A stretch of DNA of 32,143 nt from an uncultured Anaerolineae bacterium (GTDB taxonomy: Bacteria; Chloroflexota; Anaerolineae; JACIWP01): contig CALIBQ010000055.1 in the NCBI GenBank assembly GCA_938049385.1, forward strand, positions 1 through 32,143, in the 5' to 3' direction. Positions 4,996-31,884 of this stretch are shown piece after piece; within the stretch, counting starts at the first letter, position 1; each line of letters starts with the position of its first letter. Position numbers and translations under genes: made by a program. Below the pieces are notes generated by a model that was given only the letters and a program-made list of their open reading frames with translations, was not told the origin of the DNA and searched no databases.

Positions 4996-5043
4996 TGGTC
5001 AGATGCCAAACGAAAGAGGTGGTCAGATGCCAAACGAAAGAGG
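4996..5043. repeat. Two perfect tandem copies of a 24-bp unit upstream of the DUF2723 promoter
   Basis: The unit at 4996-5019 (TGGTCAGATGCC followed by AAACGAAAGAGG) is repeated base for base at 5020-5043 with no spacer. It lies between the histidine kinase stop codon and the DUF2723 promoter and covers the -35 position. It could be a duplicated regulator-binding site or simply a slippage duplication. Confidence 0.9.
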
Positions 5044-7402: not shown

Positions 7403-8689
7403 TCACGCCGGCCGCAGGACCGGGCAGAGATCGCCGCCGTGCGTGATGACCAGCACTTTCGCATCCTCCCCCTGCCGGCCAAAGGCGCGCGCCAGGCCGG
7501 CCTCAATGCTCTCCGCCCGCGCATGCCCCAATATGGCCAGCTCCTCATCGCATAATCCACTCGACACCATCTGCACATAGGCCAGTTCGTTCACCCGCGC
7601 CGCCACTACCGCGGTGTTCAGCCCCGTCCAATCGGTGAATCCTCTGCGCAGGGCTTCATGCCGAATGGCCTTCGATGGCAGTCCCCGCGCCAGCCGCATG
7701 GCCTCCAGATGATGAGGATTGGTGGAAATCCCCTCCCGGCACGGGGAAGCGAGGATGATATCCCCGCCCCGCTTGACCACCAGCTCGGCGGCATAGAGCG
7801 CCTTGACGCCCTGCCAGTAATCCAGGTCGGCGGGATGCGAGGAGATGACCACGATGTCGGGCATGACCGGCACCGGCTGTACCCAGATCGGGGTCGCCAG
7901 CTCGACCGCCCGCCGGTGCGAGTGATAGGGGTCGCCGGCCACCACATGGACCACCTCCGCCCGCGCGTTCAGCACCGTATTGAGCATGAAATCCAGCCGC
8001 ACCCGCTGGACAATCGCCTCGATCTCCTGGCGGACGGGGTTGTCCAGCCGGCCCAGATGCGGCACCGGGCTGTACATGTTCAGCGCATGGGTGTGGTGCG
8101 TGGTCTGCTCGCCGCAGACGCCCGGCTGGATGATTTTCGCGCCGCCGGACCAGCCGGCCAGGCAGTGGGGCACTGTGTTGCCCACCGCCACCACCAGGTC
8201 CGCCTCCACCACGCGGCGGTTCACCACAATGGGCGTGCCGTTGGGTGTGGTGCCCAGGTGCACCAGGTTGGCCGGGTCCATGGCATCGTGATTGATGACC
8301 GGATAGGCGGATACCACCTGCCGGCCCACCTTGCGTTCGATCTCCGCCGGCGTCATAGCCCGATGGGTGCCGGTGGCGATGAGTATCTCGATATGGAGGT
8401 TCCTGCCAGCCGCCTCCAGCTCCTCCAGCAGAGGAGGGAGCAGGACATGCTGGGGGGTGGGGCGGGTCATATCGTCCACGATGATGACAATATGCTGGCC
8501 GGGCTGTACCATCTCGCGCAGGGGCGGCCGGCCCACCGGCTCCCGCATGGCCTGCCGCACGATCGCGGCGGGGTCCGCCGCGGCCGGCACCTCCGCCGGC
8601 GCCATGACGCCCAGCAGGTTGCGGCGGGACAGGCGAAAGGATAGGGAGGTATCCCCATACGGCAGGGCGATCAGGACGTCATCGGGCAT
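7403..8689 (-). CDS. larA: LarA-family nickel-pincer racemase (lactate racemase-like)
   Basis: The protein has 428 residues, the usual length for LarA. The family motifs are DDMTRPTP (72-79), GTHR (107-110), PHCLAGWSGGAKIIQPG (174-190), H201 and a YWQGVKAL segment with K296. H109, H175, K185, H201 and K296 line up with the residues known in Lactobacillus plantarum LarA as H108, H174 (proton transfer), K184 (covalent thioamide link to the cofactor), H200 (nickel ligand) and K298, so an active nickel-pincer enzyme is expected. LarA racemises D/L-lactate, but relatives act on other 2-hydroxyacids. It is the last gene of the glycolate/lactate oxidase cluster, 36 bases after glcE, which fits isomer conversion before stereospecific oxidation. 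The cofactor genes larB, larC and larE are not in the window. The substrate remains uncertain. Confidence 0.85.
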   Translation of the reverse strand: MPDDVLIALPYGDTSLSFRLSRRNLLGVMAPAEVPAAADPAAIVRQAMREPVGRPPLREMVQPGQHIVIIVDDMTRPTPQHVLLPPLLEELEAAGRNLHIEILIATGTHRAMTPAEIERKVGRQVVSAYPVINHDAMDPANLVHLGTTPNGTPIVVNRRVVEADLVVAVGNTVPHCLAGWSGGAKIIQPGVCGEQTTHHTHALNMYSPVPHLGRLDNPVRQEIEAIVQRVRLDFMLNTVLNARAEVVHVVAGDPYHSHRRAVELATPIWVQPVPVMPDIVVISSHPADLDYWQGVKALYAAELVVKRGGDIILASPCREGISTNPHHLEAMRLARGLPSKAIRHEALRRGFTDWTGLNTAVVAARVNELAYVQMVSSGLCDEELAILGHARAESIEAGLARAFGRQGEDAKVLVITHGGDLCPVLRPA

Positions 8690-8725
8690 GGGACATCACC
8701 GTACAGTACAATATGGGAACTGGGA

Positions 8726-10039
8726 TCACAGCCGGCCGATGAAGCGGCCGGGCGAGAGGATGCCGGCGGGATCAAAGCGCGCTTTGAGCGCCTGCATCAG
8801 CGGCCAATCGGAACGTGGAGTGCCCCAGACATCCAGGTGCACCTTGTGCTCCGGTGGGATGCGCTCGATGATGGCATGGCCTCCCATCTCGCCGGCCAGC
8901 GCCTGCAGGGTGGAGGCGATGGTCGACAGATGGGCATCCCGCGCCTGTGCCATCAGATACAATACGCCGAGACCAGGGCGCGCCAGCAGGTTCAAGCTGG
9001 CCTGGCCCTCCGCTTCCAGATGCTGGACGGCCGACCAGAGACTGCCCACTGCCGAGATAGGGACGTACAGCCGCACCACCAGAGGCTCTGGGGAAACCGC
9101 CGGCATATCCTGCACCAGCCGGCGGACCTGCTGGCCTTCCGGCTCCTCGTCGGCCAACTGCTCCACATGGCGGGCATGCGCACCGCCGGCCATGGTTCCC
9201 AGGTCCCGGTATTGGCGCTGGATAACCTCATGGGTCCCTTCCAGACTGATGATCCCCCACAGGGACACATCCGAGCGGTTCGGTACCACGCGTCCCTGCA
9301 CCAGATCGAGGGAGGTTGGGAGCAGGACAGAATCCAGCACCTTCTGCACGAAATCGAAGGCGTCGCCGGCGCGGTCGAAACCCACCAGCACCCAGCGGCG
9401 CTCAGGCGGCATGGGGAAGAGCCGGCAGGTTACCCGCGTGATGACCCCAAGGGTGCCGTAAGAGCCCACGAAGGCCTTGGTCAGGTCATAGCCGGCGACG
9501 TTCTTGACGGTTTTACCGCCTACATCAATCACCTCACCACTGGTCAGCGCTACCTGCAGTCCCAGCACGATGTCGCGCGCCGCCCCGTAGCGCAGGCGGG
9601 AGGGGCCGAAGGCGTTGGCGGCCACCACGCCGCCCAGCGTGGCCCGTTCGGCCGCCGGCGGGTCCAAGGGCAAGAGCTGGCGCTTGCCCTCGACGAGTTC
9701 CTGCAGGGAGCGCAGGGTACAGCCCGCGCCGGCGGTCAGCGTCAAATTGGCGGCGTCATAGTCCACGATCTCATCCAGCGCGCCCAGGTCCAGTGCCGCG
9801 TCGTAGCGGCGGGGGATGTTGCCGATGCCTATCTGTGTGCCGCTTCCCCAGGGGATGACCCCCCAACCTTCATGCGAGCAGAGCGCCAGCAGTTCTCCCA
9901 CCTCGCCGGCATCCTGCGGGCGCGCCACAATGGCCGGCCGTTTCCCGTCCACCTCACAGGCGGAGCACAAATCGGACGTGATCACCTGATGCGGGGAAAG
10001 CACCCGCCCCACTTTGGTCAGCATCTCTTCTGGGTTCAT
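8726..10039 (-). CDS. glcE: Glycolate/D-lactate oxidase FAD-binding subunit GlcE-like
   Basis: The protein has 437 residues from ATG 10039, whose ATGA overlaps the glcD stop codon (translational coupling). It has the FAD_binding_4 fold: IPWGSGTQIGIGN near residue 62, then a PPAAERATLGGVVAANAFGPSRLRYG segment, then VKNVAGYDLTKAFVGSYGTLGVIT, which is the GlcE/GlcD flavin-binding hallmark. The C-terminus ends DPAGILSPGRFIG as in GlcE. In E. coli GlcD, GlcE and GlcF together form membrane-associated glycolate oxidase; GlcE alone is not an oxidase. The protein is longer than E. coli GlcE (about 350 residues), the extra length being in the central cap region. The frame is open upstream of 10039, but that stretch overlaps glcD and is not used. 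Confidence 0.88.
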   Translation of the reverse strand: MNPEEMLTKVGRVLSPHQVITSDLCSACEVDGKRPAIVARPQDAGEVGELLALCSHEGWGVIPWGSGTQIGIGNIPRRYDAALDLGALDEIVDYDAANLTLTAGAGCTLRSLQELVEGKRQLLPLDPPAAERATLGGVVAANAFGPSRLRYGAARDIVLGLQVALTSGEVIDVGGKTVKNVAGYDLTKAFVGSYGTLGVITRVTCRLFPMPPERRWVLVGFDRAGDAFDFVQKVLDSVLLPTSLDLVQGRVVPNRSDVSLWGIISLEGTHEVIQRQYRDLGTMAGGAHARHVEQLADEEPEGQQVRRLVQDMPAVSPEPLVVRLYVPISAVGSLWSAVQHLEAEGQASLNLLARPGLGVLYLMAQARDAHLSTIASTLQALAGEMGGHAIIERIPPEHKVHLDVWGTPRSDWPLMQALKARFDPAGILSPGRFIGRL

Positions 10040-11430
10040 GCCGGGACTCCCTCGCTGGTCTGCGGCAGGACCTTGCCGGGGTTCAGCAGGCCAACCGGGT
10101 CGAAGGCTTCTTTCACCCACCGCATGTTCTGGATGGCGGCGGGCGAGGCGATCAGCGGCATACCGTGGATTTTTTCCAGCCCGATGCCGTGCTCGCCGGT
10201 GATGGTGCCGCCGGCCTCCACACAGATGCGCATAATTTCCGCGCCGGCGCGCTCCACCAGCTCCAGAATGCCCTCCTCGCGCGGGTCGAACAGGATGAGG
10301 GGATGCAGGTTGCCGTCGCCGGCGTGGAAGACGTTGCCGATCGGCAGACCGTAGCGCTGGCCGATTTCCCGCACCTGGCGCAGGACCTGGGGCAAGGCCG
10401 TGCGGGGCACGGTGCCGTCGTTCACCAGATAGGCCGGCTTGATGCGGCCAGTGGCGCCGAAGGCGCCGCGCCGGCCGGCCCACAGCTTATCGCGTTCCTC
10501 TGCAGTGCGGGCCACCTGCACCGCCCGGGCGCGGTTGCGCTGACAGATTTGCGCAATCCGGTCGGCGATCTCCTCCATGTCATCTTTCAAGCCGTCCAGC
10601 TCGATGATGAGCACCGCTTCGGCGTCCGTGGGATAGCCGGCATGGGTGGCTTCCTCGACGGCGCGCATCATCAATTGGTCCATCATCTCCAGCGTGGCGG
10701 GTACAATGCCGGCGGCGATGATGTCGGATACCGCCTGGCTGGCGCCGTCCAGGTCGTCGAAAATGGCCAGCAGGGTTTTGATGGCCTCCGGCACGTGCAG
10801 GAGACGCACCGTCACCGCCGTGACCACGCCCAGGGTGCCTTCCGAACCGACCAGCAGGCCCACCAGGTCATAGCCGGGGGTGTCAAACGCTTTGCCGCCA
10901 AGCTGGACCACCCGGCCGTCGTACAGCACCACCTCCAGTCCCAGCACGTGGTTGGTGGTGACGCCGTACTTCAAGCAGTGGGGGCCGCCGGCGTTCTCCG
11001 CCACATTGCCGCCCAGGGTGGAGACCTTCTGGCTGGCCGGGTCCGGCGCGTACAGGTAGCCGTACGGCGCCAGTATCTCCTGCAGGGTCAGGTTGTACAG
11101 GCCGGCCTCCACCACGGCGCGCTGATTGGGAATATCTATCTCGCGCACCTTTGTCATGCGCGAAAGGGTCAGCACAATGCCGCCCTGGGGAGCGACGGAG
11201 CCCCCGCTCAGGTTGGTCCCGCCCCCGCGCGGGATAACCGGGATATGGTGGGCATGTGCCAAAGCCATAACGCGGGAGACCTGCTCCGTGCTTTCCGGGA
11301 AGACCACCACATCCGGCCGGCCGGCATGGATGGACGCGTCATAGGCATAGAGCAGAAGGTCCTCCGGATCGGTCAGCACATGTTCGGGGCCGACAATCTC
11401 CTGTAGGGTTCGGATAATGCTCTCATCCAT
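10036..11430 (-). CDS. glcD: Glycolate/D-lactate oxidase catalytic FAD subunit GlcD-like
   Basis: The protein has 464 residues from ATG 11430, preceded by GGGAG; the longer upstream frame overlaps glcF and is ignored. The N-terminal FAD domain shows VIPRGGGTNLSGGSVAPQGG and TLGGNVAENAGGPHCLKYG, then FDTPGYDLVGLLVGSEGTLGVVT. The C-terminal FAD-oxidase domain shows NVFHAGDGNLHPLILFD and GTITGEHGIGLEKI, the His-containing motifs typical of GlcD and D-lactate dehydrogenases. It oxidises a 2-hydroxyacid (glycolate or D-lactate) to the 2-oxoacid and passes electrons to the Fe-S subunit GlcF. It lies between glcF and glcE in the same operon. Sequence alone does not separate glycolate from D-lactate as substrate: the adjacent larA argues for lactate, the adjacent aminotransferase for glyoxylate. 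Confidence 0.9.
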   Translation of the reverse strand: MDESIIRTLQEIVGPEHVLTDPEDLLLYAYDASIHAGRPDVVVFPESTEQVSRVMALAHAHHIPVIPRGGGTNLSGGSVAPQGGIVLTLSRMTKVREIDIPNQRAVVEAGLYNLTLQEILAPYGYLYAPDPASQKVSTLGGNVAENAGGPHCLKYGVTTNHVLGLEVVLYDGRVVQLGGKAFDTPGYDLVGLLVGSEGTLGVVTAVTVRLLHVPEAIKTLLAIFDDLDGASQAVSDIIAAGIVPATLEMMDQLMMRAVEEATHAGYPTDAEAVLIIELDGLKDDMEEIADRIAQICQRNRARAVQVARTAEERDKLWAGRRGAFGATGRIKPAYLVNDGTVPRTALPQVLRQVREIGQRYGLPIGNVFHAGDGNLHPLILFDPREEGILELVERAGAEIMRICVEAGGTITGEHGIGLEKIHGMPLIASPAAIQNMRWVKEAFDPVGLLNPGKVLPQTSEGVPA

Positions 11431-11452
11431 ACTGCATCGCTCCCTGCCGGCG

Positions 11453-12625
11453 TTACGCCGGCTCCTCCATCGCAGACAGCAGTAGCTCTGCCACATCCAT
11501 GACCGGCATGCGCACGCGCTGGCGCCGCGCCGCCATCCCCAGGGTGCGCTGACACTGCTGGCAGGCAGTGACCAGCACCTCCGCCTTGGCCCGCTGTGCC
11601 TGGGCCAGCCGCCGGCCGGCGATCTGCGCCGAAAGCTCCGGGTCAATGGACTCCAGGTTCCCGCCGCCCCCACAGCAGGTGGCCAGGGCATGGTGGGTGG
11701 ACATCTCCACCAGTTCCACCCCCGGCAGGGCGGTAATCACCCGGCGCGGCGCGTCGTACACGCCGCTCTTACGGCCCAGGTCGCAGGGGTCGTGATAGGT
11801 TACCCGCAGGGGGCCGGCCGCGTCGCCGGCCCGGCGCACTGTCGGCGGATGGGCCGGCCGAATCCGGCCCTCCTCTATCAGGGCCGCCAGCAGTTCTGTG
11901 GCGTGCATCACCTGGAACGATGTGGGCGGATAGATGGTTTTCCAGGTGTGGTAGCAGGAAGGGCAGGTGGTGACCAGCCAGCGCGCCCCGAGCCGCTCTA
12001 CGGCGGCGATATTGTGCTCCATGAGCGGGCCGGCGTCCCGGCCGGCGGAAATGAGGGGATAGCCACAGCACCACTCTTCCCCATCCAGCGCCGAGAAAGA
12101 GACGCCGGCGCGCTGGAGCACCTGGACGAAGGCTTGCGGGATGCTATAGACCATGGGGTACAGGCTGGCCACGCATCCGATGAAAAAGACCACTTCGGCC
12201 GGCTGGCCGGCAGGCACTTCCAGGTTCATGTTCTCCCGCCATAAGGTGCGGTGGGCATTGTCCTCGCCGGCGATGTTATGGCTGGCGAAGACGCGCTGTT
12301 CCAGCGCCTGGAGCGGCGCCGGCAGAGCACCCACATGGGCCAGCCAGCGCCGCGCCCCCTCGAAAATCTCATCGGTGTGCACCCCGCTCAGGCAGGTCTG
12401 CTGACACAGCCGGCAGTCCAGACAGCGGTACACGTAATAGCTGAGCTTCGGGCTGAGGTCCAGCCGGCCGTTCAGCACCGACAGCAGTAGCTGTATTTTG
12501 CCGCGCGCCACCGCCGATTCCATGCGCAGGGCGTCATACGTCGGGCATGCCGCCTGGCAGAAACCGCACCGCGTACAGCGGAGCATTTCGTCCATATAGG
12601 GGGCGAGCAGTTCCTTGAAGTCCAC
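11453..12625 (-). CDS. glcF: Glycolate/D-lactate oxidase Fe-S subunit GlcF-like
   Basis: The protein has 390 residues when read from GTG 12625, which has GGAGG six bases in front; an ATG at 12658 in the same frame falls inside a hairpin and lacks a ribosome site. Two [4Fe-4S] motifs open the protein: C17-x2-C20-x2-C23-x3-C27-P and C68-x2-C71-x2-C74-x3-C78. Two CCG domains follow, with EEWCCGYPL plus TTCPSCYHTW and HDPCDLGRKSGVYD...CCGGGGNLE plus TACQQCQ. This is the GlcF/heterodisulfide-reductase D layout, which carries electrons from the flavin subunits to the quinone pool. The stop codon is 22 bases before glcD. A strong hairpin lies between this gene and the upstream aminotransferase gene and may adjust relative expression. 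Confidence 0.9.
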   Translation of the reverse strand: MDFKELLAPYMDEMLRCTRCGFCQAACPTYDALRMESAVARGKIQLLLSVLNGRLDLSPKLSYYVYRCLDCRLCQQTCLSGVHTDEIFEGARRWLAHVGALPAPLQALEQRVFASHNIAGEDNAHRTLWRENMNLEVPAGQPAEVVFFIGCVASLYPMVYSIPQAFVQVLQRAGVSFSALDGEEWCCGYPLISAGRDAGPLMEHNIAAVERLGARWLVTTCPSCYHTWKTIYPPTSFQVMHATELLAALIEEGRIRPAHPPTVRRAGDAAGPLRVTYHDPCDLGRKSGVYDAPRRVITALPGVELVEMSTHHALATCCGGGGNLESIDPELSAQIAGRRLAQAQRAKAEVLVTACQQCQRTLGMAARRQRVRMPVMDVAELLLSAMEEPA

Positions 12626-12655
12626 CCCGCACCTCCGTGACAGGTCGTTGGGATG

Positions 12656-12688
12656 CACAGCCCCAGCCTGCTGTTGGCTGGGGCTGTG
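12656..12688 (-). other. Perfect 13-bp stem-loop between aminotransferase and glcF
   Basis: The arms at 12656-12668 and 12676-12688 (CACAGCCCCAGCC and its complement) pair perfectly across a 7-base loop. The hairpin begins 7 bases after the aminotransferase stop codon and ends about 30 bases before the glcF start. No T-tract follows on either strand, so it is more likely an mRNA-stabilising or attenuating element than a classical intrinsic terminator, but partial termination is possible. Confidence 0.75.
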
Positions 12689-12695
12689 AGATTCT

Positions 12696-13856
12696 TCAGC
12701 TCAGGAACACCTTTTGCGCGGCGGCCACGCCGGCACCGCGCTCGAAAGCATAGCCGCTGGCGGCCAGGGCGCTCTCCAGCGCGCCTAGCACCGCCAGGAT
12801 GTCGGCCGGCGTGTGGGCACCCATGTGCCCGATGCGGAAGTACTGCGCTCGACAGGCGGGATGCAGTCCGCCGGCCACGATGACGCCGGCGGCGCCGATC
12901 TTCCCCACCAGCGCGGCATCCACTCCCTCCGGATAATACGGCGCGGTCATGGTATGCGCCCGGCAGTGCTCGCGCGGCAGTTGGCGCAGGCCCAGCGCGG
13001 TGATGCCGGCTTTGCAGGCGTCGCTCATCTTGCGGTGACGCGCGATGCGGGCTTCCATGCCCTCGGCCAGTATCTGACCCAGGCTGACGTTCAGCGCGGC
13101 GATGAGATTGACCGCCGGCGTGCCGAAGTAGGCCGGCTTGCGCGCCTCATACGCTTCCATAATGGGGAGCCAGTTGCCGAAATCGGCGTAGTAATTGCAG
13201 ACCGGTGTCTTGCGCTTGCGCCAGGCTTCCAAGGCACGCGGGCCGGCCACCACCAGCGCCAGTCCCGGCGGCGCCCCAACGGCCTTCTGGGAGGCGGTCA
13301 GCGCCAGGTCCACCCCCCATTCGTCCATGCGCAGTTCCTCGCCGGCGACGGAGCAGACGCCGTCCACCACTGCCAATGCGCCGTATTGGCGCGCCAGCGC
13401 GGCCACGCCTTTGACGTCCGCCAGCACCCCCGTAGAAGTATCCACTTGGGTAACCGTCACCAGTTTATAGGACTGCTTGCGCAGGGCCTCTTCCACCTGC
13501 TCCAGGGCCGGCATATCGCCCACTTCCGCCCGCACATGGTCCACCTGCGCGCCGTAGCGCTCCATCAGCGCACCGAAGCGGTCGCCGAAATAGCCCGTGT
13601 TGACCACCAGCGCCCGGTCGCCTGGCTCGATCAGGTTGGCGCCGGCCATGTCCATAGCCAGGGTGCCGGTGCCGGCGACGATAAAGGGCTGTCCGCTGGG
13701 GGACATGAACACCTCGCGCATGCGCTCCAGCGCCTGGCCAAACTGCTCCATAAACCAGGGGTCCAGGTGGCTGGTAGTGGGTTTTCCCATCTCCCGCATG
13801 ACCGCCGGGTCGAACTCAATCGGGCCAGGAATCATGAGCAGTTTTCGACCTTTCAT
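12696..13856 (-). CDS. Class V aminotransferase, alanine/serine-glyoxylate (serine-pyruvate) type
   Basis: The protein has 386 residues, normal length for the family, with AGGAGAGAGG just before the ATG. It starts with LLMIPGPIEFDP, matching the substrate-binding GP motif of serine-glyoxylate and alanine-glyoxylate aminotransferases. Other marks are GTGT at 62-65 (phosphate binding), D165 in AVVDGVCSVAGEEL (pyridine N contact) and the Schiff-base lysine K191 in TASQKAVGAPPGLA. The PLP enzyme would transfer an amino group from alanine or serine to glyoxylate, making glycine. It sits directly before glcFDE, so glyoxylate made by GlcDEF is a sensible substrate. Relatives that cannot be excluded are 2-aminoethylphosphonate, purine catabolism and phosphoserine-type enzymes. 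It lies 48 bases after the MoaD-like gene. Confidence 0.87.
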   Translation of the reverse strand: MKGRKLLMIPGPIEFDPAVMREMGKPTTSHLDPWFMEQFGQALERMREVFMSPSGQPFIVAGTGTLAMDMAGANLIEPGDRALVVNTGYFGDRFGALMERYGAQVDHVRAEVGDMPALEQVEEALRKQSYKLVTVTQVDTSTGVLADVKGVAALARQYGALAVVDGVCSVAGEELRMDEWGVDLALTASQKAVGAPPGLALVVAGPRALEAWRKRKTPVCNYYADFGNWLPIMEAYEARKPAYFGTPAVNLIAALNVSLGQILAEGMEARIARHRKMSDACKAGITALGLRQLPREHCRAHTMTAPYYPEGVDAALVGKIGAAGVIVAGGLHPACRAQYFRIGHMGAHTPADILAVLGALESALAASGYAFERGAGVAAAQKVFLS

Positions 13857-13904
13857 GCACCTCTCTCCTAGAAAGAATGGGGCATGCCCGCCGGCCGGCG
13901 CGCG

Positions 13905-14156
13905 TCATCCACCGCCGATAGTCGGCGGGAGGATGTCAATCACATCCCCTTCCTGCACCACGTAATCAGGGGGAAGGGGCTTGGCGTCTTTCAAATATCG
14001 GTTTGCCCAGCGCGGGGGTATGCCAATGCGCTCACGAATCTGATCCAACGTCGTGCCGTCCTCGACCTGCAGGGTGAAATGGCCGTCGTAGCCCTGTTCT
14101 TGAGCGAACTTACGCAGGATAGAATAGAGCCGGATGTGCACGGTTGCCGGCGACAT
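13905..14156 (-). CDS. MoaD/ThiS-family ubiquitin-like sulfur-carrier protein
   Basis: This 83-residue protein starts at ATG 14156 behind GGAGG with 5-base spacing; the frame is open upstream but without a start signal. It has the beta-grasp pattern of small sulfur carriers: HIRLYSILRKFA at the N-terminus, FTLQVEDGTTLDQIRERIGIP in the middle, and VVQEGDVIDILPPTIGGG at the end. The terminal Gly-Gly, needed for adenylation and thiocarboxylate formation by an E1-like enzyme, is present as GGG. Its adenylating partner (MoeB/ThiF) and other molybdopterin or thiamine genes are not in the window. It lies between the UROD-like gene and the aminotransferase gene in a hydroxyacid oxidation cluster. Its target (molybdopterin, tungstopterin, thiamine, cysteine or the nickel-pincer cofactor) cannot be told from sequence. 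Confidence 0.82.
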   Translation of the reverse strand: MSPATVHIRLYSILRKFAQEQGYDGHFTLQVEDGTTLDQIRERIGIPPRWANRYLKDAKPLPPDYVVQEGDVIDILPPTIGGG

Positions 14157-14233
14157 GGTGCCTCCTCGGTCCAGCGCGTGAAATTCAGGGTAATTATACC
14201 CCGGATTGCTCCCCTCGCCAAACCGTGTGGAAG

Positions 14234-14275
14234 CTTCCCATCTCCCGGCCCCCTGCACGCAGGGAGAGGAGCCGG
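14234..14275. repeat. Intergenic C-rich/G-rich hairpin element, copy 1
   Basis: A C-rich arm, a TGCAC-containing centre and a G-rich arm form CCCTGC-AC-GCAGGG (14251-14264) with further C/G-rich flanks. Two similar elements lie at 22001-22041 and 26656-26697. It sits between the UROD-like and MoaD-like genes. Confidence 0.55.
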
Positions 14276-14306
14276 CGGCGCGAAAAGGGGTCTGCGCCAA
14301 GCCGGC

Positions 14307-15443
14307 TTACGGCTGATAGCTCGCGGCCTCATCCAGCATGGCCCAGATGTTTTCCGGCGGGACATCGTCCTGGATGTTGTGCACCGCCGCCAGCACATAC
14401 CCGCCGGAATGGTTCATCACATCAATGGTATGGCGTACGGCGGCCCGCACCTCTGCCGGCGTACCGCGCGGCAGGAGCCGCTGGGTGTCAATGCCGCCCC
14501 AGAAGGCCATGCGGCCGGCGAAGCGCGCCTTCAGGTTCTCCGGCGACATGCCAGCGGCCGAAACCTGCATCGGGTTCAGCGCGTCCACCCCGATCTCGAT
14601 GTAATCCTCCACCAGGTCCGCGATGCTCCCACAGGCATGGACGACGATTCTGGCGTCCGTGTGACGCCGGATCAGCTCCATGTAGCGGCGGTGGAAGGGC
14701 TTGACCATCTCTCGGTACAGCTCGGGGCTCAAGAGCGGGCCGGTTTGAATGCCCATGTCGTCGGAGACCATGACGGCATCCACATAGGGGCCGACTTCCT
14801 GGAGGAAGCGCTCCAGCCGGCGGAACTGAATCTGCGCCACCTTCTCCAGCAGTGCGAGCGCGAAGCCTGGGTCCAGCAGGAGGTCCATCAGAAAGCGCGC
14901 CGTGCCCCTCAGCCAGCAAGCGCGGTCGAACAGGGTGGTGTCCAGCGTCGAGGCACAGATGGCGAAGTCGGTGCCCTCGTGGAGCTGTCGCGCCTTCTCG
15001 CGCAAGCCGGCGTAGCGCCCTTCATCTTCTACGTCCGGCCCCTCGAAGCGTTCGACATCTTCCAACGTGGCCTCGGCCAGCGGATGGGCGATCATGTCGA
15101 ACTGCGGCCAGCCGGCCGGCCGGCGGTAGGTGATGCCCCATTCGTCCACGAAGGTGGCATCGTCCAGCCAGCGCGTGCGCGAGCGCGCCGGCGGGTTGAT
15201 GAATAGCGGGCGGGTGTCCACCGGCAGAAGCCGCAGGACGGCCTCATCCATTTCGACGATCTCGAAGGCCAAGTTGATCACCTTGGGGGAGGTAATGGGC
15301 ACCCCCAGAAATTCGGCCAGACGCAGATATGCCCCGGTGCAAATGGTGCTGTTGGGCGTGCCGCCGAGGTCTATGGGCACGCGGTCTACTTCCTGGTGAT
15401 TGAGCGCCGCCAGGACCCTCTGGCGCGGGGTCATGCTCGCCAT
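14307..15443 (-). CDS. Uroporphyrinogen decarboxylase-family protein (methyltransferase MtaA-like)
   Basis: The protein has 378 residues from ATG 15443, with GGAGGGAGA directly before it. TPRQRVLAALNHQEVDRVPID is the standard opening of UROD/MtaA-family TIM barrels. VMVSDDMGIQTGPLLSPELYREMVKPFHRR, the H269-A-C271 pair in IVVHACGSI and the C-terminal GGYVLAAVHNIQDDVPPENI support the family. In MtaA/MtbA-type methylcobamide:CoM methyltransferases a zinc ion is held by H-x-C plus a later Cys; here the later position reads AAVHNIQ, so the third ligand is changed or lost. It is therefore not a haem-pathway HemE by context and may be a methyltransferase-like or catabolic enzyme. It is the first gene of the seven-gene minus-strand cluster and has a good promoter in front. 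Confidence 0.8.
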   Translation of the reverse strand: MASMTPRQRVLAALNHQEVDRVPIDLGGTPNSTICTGAYLRLAEFLGVPITSPKVINLAFEIVEMDEAVLRLLPVDTRPLFINPPARSRTRWLDDATFVDEWGITYRRPAGWPQFDMIAHPLAEATLEDVERFEGPDVEDEGRYAGLREKARQLHEGTDFAICASTLDTTLFDRACWLRGTARFLMDLLLDPGFALALLEKVAQIQFRRLERFLQEVGPYVDAVMVSDDMGIQTGPLLSPELYREMVKPFHRRYMELIRRHTDARIVVHACGSIADLVEDYIEIGVDALNPMQVSAAGMSPENLKARFAGRMAFWGGIDTQRLLPRGTPAEVRAAVRHTIDVMNHSGGYVLAAVHNIQDDVPPENIWAMLDEAASYQP

Positions 15444-26724: not shown

Positions 26725-27327
26725 CTACCGTTTGCGCGCCTGGCCGGCCAGCGCGCGCCCGCGCCGGAAGGCTTCCAGGTTCACCTCCAGCGCTTTGGCC
26801 GGCACGTGCCGCGCCGCGGCCTCCAGCCAGATATGCTCCTCCACCGCCAGCCAGGCGGAAAGCGCCCCCAGTATTACCAGGTTGTGGGCGCGGGCATTGC
26901 CCAACTGCTGGGCAATCTCCACCGCCGGCACCAGCAGGTAATCCTTGGTCACCTGCTCCACAACCCCGATAAAGCGCGCCTGGGAGGGATATTCTGCCCC
27001 GCCGGAGGTCACCGCCACCGGCGGGATCTGATGCGTGCTCAGGATGGCACGCCCGCCCTGCCGCAGATACTCGATGTAGCGCAGGGCCTCCACCATCTCA
27101 AAGCCGAGCAGGATATCCACCTCGCCCTTGCCGGCCATGGGAGAGAAGACCTGCTCGCCCCAGCGCACATGACTGCTCACACTGCCGCCGCGCTGGGCCA
27201 TGCCGTGAATCTCCGACTTCTTGACATCATAGCCGGCGGCCAGGCCCGCGTCTGCCAGGATATTGGCGGCCAGCAGGGTGCCCTGACCACCGACGCCCAC
27301 CAGCATGAAGTTGATCGGTTCTTTCAT
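26725..27327 (-). CDS. iorB: Indolepyruvate:ferredoxin oxidoreductase subunit beta
   Basis: The protein has 200 residues, the usual length, with GGAGG ahead of the ATG. It opens with INFMLVGVGGQGTLLAANIL, the gamma-type 2-oxoacid:ferredoxin oxidoreductase motif, followed by VKKSEIHGMAQRGGSVSSHVRWG, which is diagnostic for IorB. IorB pairs with IorA to convert arylpyruvates (indolepyruvate, phenylpyruvate) to aryl-acetyl-CoA with reduction of ferredoxin, in the breakdown of aromatic amino acids by anaerobes. It follows iorA by 18 bases on the same transcript. All recognisable motifs are intact. Confidence 0.93.
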   Translation of the reverse strand: MKEPINFMLVGVGGQGTLLAANILADAGLAAGYDVKKSEIHGMAQRGGSVSSHVRWGEQVFSPMAGKGEVDILLGFEMVEALRYIEYLRQGGRAILSTHQIPPVAVTSGGAEYPSQARFIGVVEQVTKDYLLVPAVEIAQQLGNARAHNLVILGALSAWLAVEEHIWLEAAARHVPAKALEVNLEAFRRGRALAGQARKR

Positions 27328-27345
27328 GGCAGGTCCTCCGTGATG

Positions 27346-29163
27346 TCAGGATTGGCCGCCGGCGGGCGTGGGGGCCGGCGCGACCTCGGACCGGAACAGG
27401 ATGGCATGCTGAGGGCAGACCTGGGCGCACACCTCACAGCCGGTGCAGAGAAGCGGGTCAATGTCCGATTTCTGGCGCTTGTTCTTCTCGAAAATCTCAT
27501 CACTGCGGCGGATGGCGGGACAGCCCACCCGGAAGCAGGTCCAGCAGGCGATGCATTTCTGGCGGTCGACGCGCAGGGGCAGGTAGCGCTTGCGGGCCTC
27601 TGGCAGGAGGGCGCACTCGCGTCGGGTGATGATGACGGCCGGCTCCTCCTTCGCCAGCGCCTCCTCGAACGCCTCCTGCACCGCCTTCAGGTCATAGGCG
27701 TCCACGGTGCGCACATTGGGTATGCCCATGGCACGTACCAGCGGCTCCAGCTCGACCTCCACGGTCCTCTCGCCCTGCAGGGTGTAGCCGGTGCCGGGGT
27801 TCTGCTGGTGGCCGGTCATGGCGGTGACGCGGTTGTCCATGATGACTGTGATGGTCTTGCCGCGGTTGTAGGCGACGTTGAGCAGGGCCGGCATGCCCGT
27901 GTGGAAGAAGGTGGAATCGCCGATGACCGCGATCTGGCGCTCGGGGCCGCCGGCCTTGTCCGCGCCGTGCGCCACACCGATGCCGGCGCCCATGCACCCA
28001 CAAAAGTCAATGGTGGAGAGCGGCGGCATGGCGCCAAGCGTGTAACAGCCGATATCCCCCTGCACCGGTAGCTTGAACTTTTTCATTACGTAGAAGACGC
28101 CGCGATGGGGACAGCCTGGACAGAGCACCGGCGGGCGCGGCGGCAGGTCCCCCTTGATGGGGTCCGGCGGGACGACACGCTCCGACTCGGGGAGCAGGCC
28201 GGCGGCGATGGCGGCGTCGCGCACCACCTCGGGAGAGAACTCCCCGCAGATGGGGAAGATGCTCTTGCCTTCGACCGGGATGCCGAGGATGCGGATTTCC
28301 TCCTCCAGGAAGGGGTCCAGCTCTTCCAGCACGATGAGCCGGCGCACCTTGCCGGCGAAATCGGCGATGAGCCGGCGGGGGACCGGATAGGTCATGCCCA
28401 GCCGCAGGACCGAAGCGTCCGGGAACACCTCGCGAGCATATTGATAGGACACACCGCAGGTAACGATGCCCAGCTCCTGGTCGCGCAGTTCTACCCGGTT
28501 ATAAGGGAAGCTCTCCGCAAACTCCGCCAAGCGCTGGATGCGCTCTTCCAAGACGGGATGGCGCTTGCGGGCATTGACCGGCAGCATGACGTACTTCTCG
28601 AAGTTGCGGGGGAACTTCTCCACCTTCGGCGGGCGCTTCTGGCGTTCCCCCACCTCCACCGGCGAGTAGGTGTGCGCGATTCGGGTGGTGATGCGCAGGA
28701 GCACCGGCGTGTCGAACTGCTCGCTGATGTCCAGCGCCGCCGCTACCATTTCCTTGGCTTCCTGGCTGTCGCTGGGCTCCAGGCAGGGCACGCGGGCGAA
28801 TTTGGCGTAGCGGCGGTTGTCCTGCTCGTTCTGGGAGCTGTGCATGGCGGGGTCGTCGGCGGAGACGATAACCAGGCCAGCCTCGATGCCGGTCATGGAC
28901 GCATAGAAGAACGAGTCGGCCGCCACGTTCAGGCCGACATGCTTCATGCAGGTCATGGCGCGCCGGCCGGCGTAGGCCGCGCCGATGGCCACGTCCATAG
29001 CCACTTTCTCGTTGGTCGCCCATTCTGCATAGACATCCGGAAGGGTCGCAAATGTCTCCAGAATCTCGGTGCTGGGCGTGCCGGGATAGGCCGCGGCGAC
29101 TTCCACGCCGGCCTCCCAGGCTCCCCAGGCGATGGCCTCATTGCCGGATAGAATGCGCTTCAT
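27346..29163 (-). CDS. iorA: Indolepyruvate:ferredoxin oxidoreductase subunit alpha
   Basis: The protein has 605 residues, full length. The N-terminal pyrimidine-binding domain has AAYPGTPSTEILE and WATNEKVAMDVAIGAAYAG. A central VLCPGCPHRGVFYVMKK segment follows, and the thiamine diphosphate-binding region has CMGAGIGVAHG and IGDSTFFHTGMPALLNVAYN...DN. The C-terminus carries two ferredoxin-type motifs: C537-x2-C540-x2-C543-x4-C548-P and C573-x2-C576-x2-C579-x3-C583-P. It oxidatively decarboxylates indolepyruvate and related arylpyruvates, giving acyl-CoA, CO2 and reduced ferredoxin in the cytosol. It needs IorB, encoded immediately downstream. This points to an anaerobic amino acid-using lifestyle. 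Confidence 0.96.
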   Translation of the reverse strand: MKRILSGNEAIAWGAWEAGVEVAAAYPGTPSTEILETFATLPDVYAEWATNEKVAMDVAIGAAYAGRRAMTCMKHVGLNVAADSFFYASMTGIEAGLVIVSADDPAMHSSQNEQDNRRYAKFARVPCLEPSDSQEAKEMVAAALDISEQFDTPVLLRITTRIAHTYSPVEVGERQKRPPKVEKFPRNFEKYVMLPVNARKRHPVLEERIQRLAEFAESFPYNRVELRDQELGIVTCGVSYQYAREVFPDASVLRLGMTYPVPRRLIADFAGKVRRLIVLEELDPFLEEEIRILGIPVEGKSIFPICGEFSPEVVRDAAIAAGLLPESERVVPPDPIKGDLPPRPPVLCPGCPHRGVFYVMKKFKLPVQGDIGCYTLGAMPPLSTIDFCGCMGAGIGVAHGADKAGGPERQIAVIGDSTFFHTGMPALLNVAYNRGKTITVIMDNRVTAMTGHQQNPGTGYTLQGERTVEVELEPLVRAMGIPNVRTVDAYDLKAVQEAFEEALAKEEPAVIITRRECALLPEARKRYLPLRVDRQKCIACWTCFRVGCPAIRRSDEIFEKNKRQKSDIDPLLCTGCEVCAQVCPQHAILFRSEVAPAPTPAGGQS

Positions 29164-30640: not shown

Positions 30641-30773
30641 GACTCTTATCCAGAGGGGTGGAGGGACCGGCCCTGTGAAGCCCCGGCAACCAGGCGTGGT
30701 CCACGCCATGGTGCCAATTCCGGCAGGAGCACAGGCGCGTGGATGCCTGTCTGCTACCTGAAAGATGAGAGGG
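30641..30773 (+). ncRNA. SAM-I (S-box) riboswitch aptamer
   Basis: The conserved S-box core reads CTTATCCAGAG, then GGTGGAGGGAC, then a GCCCTGTGAAGCCCCGGCAACC block, a P3 hairpin (GGCGTGG-TC-CACGCC), GGTGCCAATTCC, a P4 hairpin (ACAGGC...GCCTGT) and AAAGATGAGAG at the end. The P1 stem is CTCTTATC (30643-30650) with GATGAGAG (30764-30771), including one wobble pair. S-box RNAs bind S-adenosylmethionine and switch off methionine/SAM metabolism genes, here mtnA. The terminator follows 17 bases downstream. Confidence 0.93.
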
Positions 30774-30790: not shown

Positions 30791-30818
30791 AAGCTCTCCT
30801 CGGGAGAGCTTTTTATTT
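30791..30818 (+). terminator. Riboswitch-controlled intrinsic terminator before mtnA
   Basis: AAGCTCTCC (30791-30799), a TCG loop, and GGAGAGCTT (30803-30811) form a 9-bp stem followed by TTTATTT. The 5' arm can also pair with the GAGAGGGGAG segment at the 3' side of aptamer P1 (about 30768-30777), the usual antiterminator when SAM is low. SAM binding would free the terminator and stop transcription. Confidence 0.85.
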
Positions 30819-30843
30819 GTCGTTTACCGAACGGAGGCGGCCC

Positions 30844-31884
30844 TTGCGCACCATCGAATGGCATAACGGCCGGGTCAGGATGATTGACCAGCGTCTCCTG
30901 CCGCTCGAATATCGAGTGGTGGAGTACGATGATTATCATCAGGTGGCGGAGGCCATTCGGGATATGGTGGTGCGGGGGGCGCCGGCTATCGGCGCCGCGG
31001 CCGCCTTCGGGCTGGCGCTGTCGGCCAGGCAGAGCCGCGCGGAGAACGTGCCGGCACTCATGGCCGACCTGGAACAAGCGGCCGAGGTCCTGCGCCGCAC
31101 ACGTCCTACGGCCGTCAATCTGAGCTGGGCGCTGGAACGCATGCTGCGACGCGCTCGCGCCGGCCGTTGGGGGAGCGTGACCGAACTCACCACCGCGCTC
31201 GAGGCTGAGGCGCTGGCGATAGCGGATGAGGACGTGCAGGTCAACCGCCGCATTGGGGAGGTCGGGGCGGCTATCGTGCCGGACGGGGCCAACATCCTGA
31301 CCCACTGCAACGCCGGCGCCCTGGCGACGGTGGAATACGGCACGGCCCTGGGTGTGGTGCGCATGGCGGTGGAGCAGGGCAAGCGGGTGCATGTCTGGGT
31401 GGATGAGACGCGCCCGCGCCTGCAGGGTGCCCGGCTGACCGCTTGGGAATTGATGCGCGACGGCATCCCCATGACGTTAATCGCGGATAATGCCGCCGGC
31501 CACCTGATGCGCGCCGGCAGGGTTGACCTGGTGCTTTTCGGCGCCGATCGCGTGGCCGCCAACGGCGATGTGGCCAATAAAATCGGGAGCTATCAATTGG
31601 CAGTGCTGGCCAAAGAGAACGGCATACCCTGCTATGCGGTCTCTCCTATCTCCACCATCGACCTCTCGCTGGCCACCGGTGATGAGATTCCCATCGAGGA
31701 GCGCCCCGCGGAAGAGGTGACGGTGATTGACGGCCGGCGCATCGCCCCGGAGGGCGTGCCGGTGTACAACCCCGCCTTCGATGTCACGCCGCATCGCTAT
31801 CTGACGGGCATCATCACGGAAAACGGGATTGCCTATCCTCCGTACGGCGTCAGCCTGCGCAAGATGGTGAACGGAGGAGGATAG
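30844..31884 (+). CDS. mtnA: Methylthioribose-1-phosphate isomerase
   Basis: The protein has 346 residues from TTG 30844, chosen because GGAGG (30833-30837) is six bases in front; an in-frame TTG at 30817 falls in the terminator T-run. Family motifs: [19 protein letters not shown] near residues 39-57, [21 protein letters not shown] with the catalytic Cys, [44 protein letters not shown] with the catalytic Asp, and [22 protein letters not shown] at the C-terminus. It isomerises 5-methylthioribose-1-phosphate to methylthioribulose-1-phosphate in methionine salvage. Related aldose-1-phosphate isomerases (eIF2B-like) are the main alternative, but the SAM riboswitch in front strongly supports MtnA. 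No other salvage gene follows before the IS element. Confidence 0.95.

Follow-up and report, generated by a model that had tools for sequence, protein, structure and literature searches.

A probable 2-hydroxyacid oxidation and transamination operon with a LarA homologue in an uncultured Anaerolineae bacterium

In this study we analysed a 32,143-nucleotide stretch of DNA (hereafter the window), which is contig CALIBQ010000055.1 (C55) of the 3.37 Mb genome assembly of an uncultured Anaerolineae bacterium (GCA_938049385.1, genome G000), and which carries seven genes, all on the minus strand between positions 7403 and 15443, that link a LarA homologue to GlcDEF-type oxidoreductase subunits and an aminotransferase. 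In the order of transcription these are urod (14307-15443), encoding a 378-residue UROD/MtaA-superfamily protein (PF01208, 97.2 bits) predicted to be a zinc/corrinoid-type methyltransferase-like enzyme; a moaD-like gene (13905-14156) for an 83-residue ubiquitin-fold sulfur carrier ending in GGG (PF02597 and PF14451 above cut-off); a class V aminotransferase gene (AT, 12696-13856, PF00266, 386 residues) of the AGXT/serine-pyruvate type; glcF (11453-12625), for a Fe-S subunit with a 4Fe-4S dicluster and two CCG domains, for which a GTG start at 12625 is favoured and 12658 is possible; glcD (10036-11430) and glcE (8726-10039), both for subunits that bind flavin adenine dinucleotide (FAD); and larA (7403-8689), for a 428-residue member of the nickel-pincer-nucleotide (NPN) 2-hydroxyacid racemase family (PF09861, 222.1 bits; PF21113, 40.6 bits). 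From urod to larA the successive gaps are 150, 48, 70, 22, -4 (an overlap of glcD and glcE) and 36 bases, so that gene calls, domain matches and measured gaps bear out the arrangement described in an earlier note on this DNA, i.e., seven minus-strand genes, most gaps of 22-70 bases, a four-base overlap and a largest gap of 150 bases. An identical seven-gene order, with its short gaps, is found in two other species of the same genus, at protein identities of ~90-98%, and all seven genes show purifying selection against these congeners (dN/dS 0.03-0.11). Shared order and purifying selection together show the cluster to be real and maintained within the genus; the conservation of gene order that the earlier note proposed to check in relatives thus holds inside the genus and not beyond it.

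Both the Lar_N and LarA_C domains of the window LarA score above their cut-offs, and residue mapping together with an alignment places its D73, R76, H109, H175, K185, H201, Q293 and K296 at D72, R75, H108, H174, K184, H200, Q295 and K298 of L. plantarum LarA. The genes larE, larB and larC adjoin each other elsewhere in the genome (G000:C24:19722-22455). Since these eight catalytic and cofactor residues are kept and larE-larB-larC are encoded in the genome, it is plausible that the window larA yields a working nickel-pincer enzyme. Among the published pocket signatures, Phe-Phe denotes lactate, Tyr-Lys the malate racemase Mar2, and Leu or Phe followed by Met a short-chain aliphatic enzyme (PMC7583248); the window enzyme, in which the loop after the catalytic His reads Cys-Leu (H-C-L) and a W stands in place of Y294, agrees with none of the characterised signatures given in that paper's text. 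It also falls short of the curated equivalog scores set for lactate racemase (312 vs 460 bits) and malate racemase (349 vs 500 bits). LarAH6/MAR is the best-scoring hidden Markov model; we nevertheless rejected malate racemase as an assignment, as neither the cut-off nor the pocket signature agrees, and the lysine of malate racemase is not present, making malate an unlikely substrate, and the pocket points to no characterised one. The Cys-Leu loop is common to the window LarA and its two 57-60% identical orthologues, and these proteins (H-C-L, W) could be imagined as an uncharacterised subgroup acting on a novel 2-hydroxyacid, with the cluster as a new salvage route to an amino acid into which the UROD protein feeds substrate, a proposal that we regard as very doubtful; none of the other six cluster genes accompanies the closest larA orthologues.

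Downstream of the aminotransferase gene, the GlcD, GlcE and GlcF families are present as three contiguous subunits. Each scores below its curated equivalog cut-off (GlcD, TIGR00387, 527.7 against 567.9 bits; GlcE 159.1 against 284; GlcF 100.9 against 333), and the nearest solved chain to the window GlcD is labelled 'Glycolate oxidase'. The best solved matches of the aminotransferase are 2bkw, an alanine-glyoxylate aminotransferase, and 3zrp, a serine-pyruvate aminotransferase, and it falls below the equivalog cut-off of the aspartate-glyoxylate enzyme BhcA (225 against 650 bits). As equivalog cut-offs are missed, these proteins are assigned by family only, leaving a substrate range of lactate, glycerate, glycolate and similar acids.

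Taken together, we read the locus as a 2-hydroxyacid oxidation and transamination operon, moaD-AT-glcF-glcD-glcE-larA, with urod adjoining it, and give this reading a probability of roughly 0.6. LarA would convert a short 2-hydroxyacid back and forth between its L and D forms, using a nickel-pincer cofactor made by the LarE, LarB and LarC proteins encoded elsewhere; lactate, glycerate or a similar acid would be likelier substrates for it than glycolate, which has no isomers. GlcDEF would then oxidise the D form to the 2-oxoacid, with electrons passing via GlcF to a quinone or redox pool, and the AGXT-type aminotransferase would transaminate the latter, giving glycine from glyoxylate, alanine from pyruvate or serine from hydroxypyruvate. 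The suggestion of the earlier note, a 2-hydroxyacid module that handles its own isomers, is supported for the genes from the aminotransferase to larA.

The same gene families meet in other genomes. Aminotransferase orthologues above threshold occur in 78 of 298 genomes of the class, one per genome and mostly without cluster neighbours, which, with the closest larA orthologues standing apart from the other six genes, could indicate that housekeeping genes were joined by chance in one genus and share no common pathway. We consider such a chance assembly unlikely, as the four-base overlap and the short gaps conserved in three species speak against it, as do a second larA-glcF-glcD unit in the window's own genome (L042) and the fact that AT-GlcD and MoaD-AT-GlcD-LarA recur independently elsewhere. 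GlcD lies directly downstream of the aminotransferase gene, on the same strand, at 10 of 46 AT loci examined, in five other families, and genome G060, from another family, carries AOR-MoaD-AT-GlcD-LarA in one run (AOR, aldehyde oxidoreductase), without UROD and with a LarA above the lactate racemase cut-off (501.9 vs 460 bits). A partner of the aminotransferase fixed across the class was ruled out, since most AT loci share no neighbour and the GlcD pair alone recurs. As a separate observation, the G060 glcD open frame (L106:8427-10358) includes an N-terminal domain of the 23S rRNA-intervening-sequence type (PF05635), either a fusion or an in-frame upstream extension.

Several findings weigh against the proposed operon and its pathway. 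The seven-gene order is known from one genus only, no curated equivalog cut-off is reached by LarA, GlcD, GlcE, GlcF or the aminotransferase, and there is no AOR within the seven-gene cluster. The GlcD that is paired with the aminotransferase elsewhere belongs to a different subgroup, ~41-43% identical to the window GlcD; the AT-GlcD pairing therefore arose or was refilled independently. Moreover, a larA orthologue sharing the pocket residues of the window LarA (L038:17-4052) immediately precedes genes for a transketolase-like protein and a sugar-isomerase-like TIM barrel, and these neighbours hint at a sugar acid.

The earlier note had one strong promoter leading the whole set, and a promoter-like site is indeed present upstream of urod (P1, 15494-15522, minus strand, TTGACA-17-TACATT), with hexamers and spacing kept in all three species while the flanking sequence diverges. 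Its role as sole lead was not sustained, because a second promoter-like site, likewise conserved in all three species, precedes moaD in the interval behind urod (P2, 14193-14221, minus strand, TTGGCG-17-TATAAT, 10/12). The simplest reading of these conserved sites is two units, urod and moaD-AT-glcFDE-larA, in which the six genes would be transcribed from P2 and urod would be an adjoining unit driven by P1, from which transcription may read through. The hairpin that had been noticed in the 150-base urod-moaD gap was confirmed insofar as the gap folds better than shuffled sequences (z -3.0); the hairpin-rich stretch of ~70 bases, however, has no counterpart in either congener, whose gaps measure 81 and 90 bases, and is therefore not part of the system.

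The UROD protein scores below both the HemE equivalog cut-off (22.9 against 302.95 bits) and the MtaA/CmuA subfamily cut-off (63.1 against 235.4 bits), and it shares with the UROD/MtaA/CmuA methyltransferase superfamily the fold family, by sequence, and an H-x-C motif. H269 and C271, which form this motif, and H355, a candidate third ligand, are invariant in its orthologues; H355 occupies the site at which MtaA-type enzymes carry a third Cys ligand. Such invariance would suit a zinc-dependent methyltransferase-like enzyme. All seven genes could form one pathway with an undescribed step, in which methyl transfer by UROD, from an O-methylated or corrinoid-bound substrate, frees a 2-hydroxyacid for LarA, GlcDEF and the aminotransferase, and MoaD supplies cofactor sulfur for that step. 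The tight spacing and the same seven-gene order in three species favour this, together with the strong purifying selection that acts on both urod and moaD, the retention of H269-x-C271 and H355, and eight corrinoid-protein-type domain matches in the window's genome. Against it, P2 divides urod from the other six genes, none of which is present at the loci of six orthologues elsewhere (67-68% identical to urod), UROD is missing from the G060 run, and LarA and UROD are found within 4 kb of each other outside the genus once among the matches listed, against 0.7 expected, i.e., at chance level. We thus judge a single seven-gene pathway to be quite improbable; from its own conserved promoter-like site, the absence of the other six genes beside its nearest orthologues, the chance-level proximity to LarA and its lack in G060, the UROD gene is probably a neighbour with its own promoter, forming a separate unit. 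Neither LarA-UROD nor UROD-AOR linkage was retained as a general rule, since the counts are near expectation among the matches listed. The structure that AlphaFold predicted for UROD had a mean pLDDT of 57 and was set aside as poor. Our literature search for roles of the UROD family in Chloroflexi found nothing relevant. Elsewhere in the genome (L048, G000:C73:32182-34464), a paralogous UROD gene starts ~25 bases past the AFOR_C match of a tungsten AOR in the same orientation, and the two may form an AOR-UROD pair.

The remaining member, MoaD, has a ThiS/MoaD family match with a C-terminal GG, and is a separate copy from the main molybdopterin set moaA-moaD-moaE on contig C34, where, as a further observation, an amidohydrolase gene and two UROD genes lie upstream of that set, all on one strand (L047, G000:C34:1-8101). 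The relatives of the window MoaD examined outside the genus (L106, L141, L142, L143 and L144) are immediately preceded by an AOR, in each case from a single clade whose members are 63-72% identical, and one further relative (L145) adjoins a ThiF-type gene instead. A role in making the tungsten cofactor has been ascribed to MoaD proteins adjacent to AOR (PMC1779556), and the window MoaD is of the type that directly follows AOR in those clusters, differing in that its own cluster has no AOR; 15 AOR-domain matches are present in the window's genome. A tungsten-cofactor role is accordingly the best reading we can offer, in which MoaD would be an accessory sulfur carrier for the tungsten or molybdenum pterin of a putative AOR client and not a catalyst in the hydroxyacid pathway. 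A direct link to LarA, with the MoaD thiocarboxylate supplying sulfur to LarE for nickel-pincer cofactor assembly, draws on the operon-like run of moaD with larA in both the window and G060, and on the need of LarE enzymes for a sulfur source (PMC9283937). It seems most unlikely, given that larE-larB-larC form a three-gene run on another contig that has no MoaD/ThiS match, that the closest MoaD relatives track AOR, and that the LarE sulfur routes given in that paper draw on the enzyme's own cysteine or a Fe-S cluster; a part for MoaD in NPN assembly is therefore unsupported. LarA-AOR linkage within 4 kb (3 observed vs 0.76 expected among the matches listed) is not claimed, as two of the three cases come from one genus. 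The earlier idea of an undescribed step marked by MoaD and UROD is thus not upheld, since MoaD is of the AOR-linked type and recurs with AT-GlcD-LarA beside an AOR in another family, and UROD has its own promoter-like site, orthologues that stand apart, and no place in that run.

Outside the cluster, the window contains a S-adenosylmethionine (SAM) riboswitch (RF00162, 91 bits, 30643-30771) upstream of a gene for 5-methylthioribose-1-phosphate isomerase (30817-31884), genes for the alpha and beta subunits of indolepyruvate ferredoxin oxidoreductase (26725-29163), and a perfect 24-base tandem duplication (4996-5043) between two minus-strand genes.

GlcF- and GlcD-type proteins (COG0247 and COG0277) are recurrent neighbours of LarA homologues (PMC7583248), and the window cluster resembles those modules in having a LarA homologue with its catalytic residues kept beside such oxidoreductases; it adds GlcE, an AGXT-type aminotransferase and MoaD, and its pocket (C-L, W) differs. 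As in the glycolate oxidase GlcDEF of E. coli, two FAD subunits and one Fe-S subunit of matching families are encoded side by side, whereas the window subunits are below equivalog cut-offs, follow the order glcF-glcD-glcE and are coupled to a racemase and an aminotransferase. A literature search for LarA-GlcDEF-aminotransferase clusters found nothing relevant. The core of the locus follows a known theme to which an aminotransferase is added, and UROD and MoaD have ordinary explanations. If this reading is true, an aminotransferase outlet would be added to the known pairing of LarA with GlcD/GlcF, a false lead would be removed, in that UROD and MoaD need not belong to a new biochemical step, and the cluster would point to a LarA pocket type awaiting assay in uncultured Anaerolineae.

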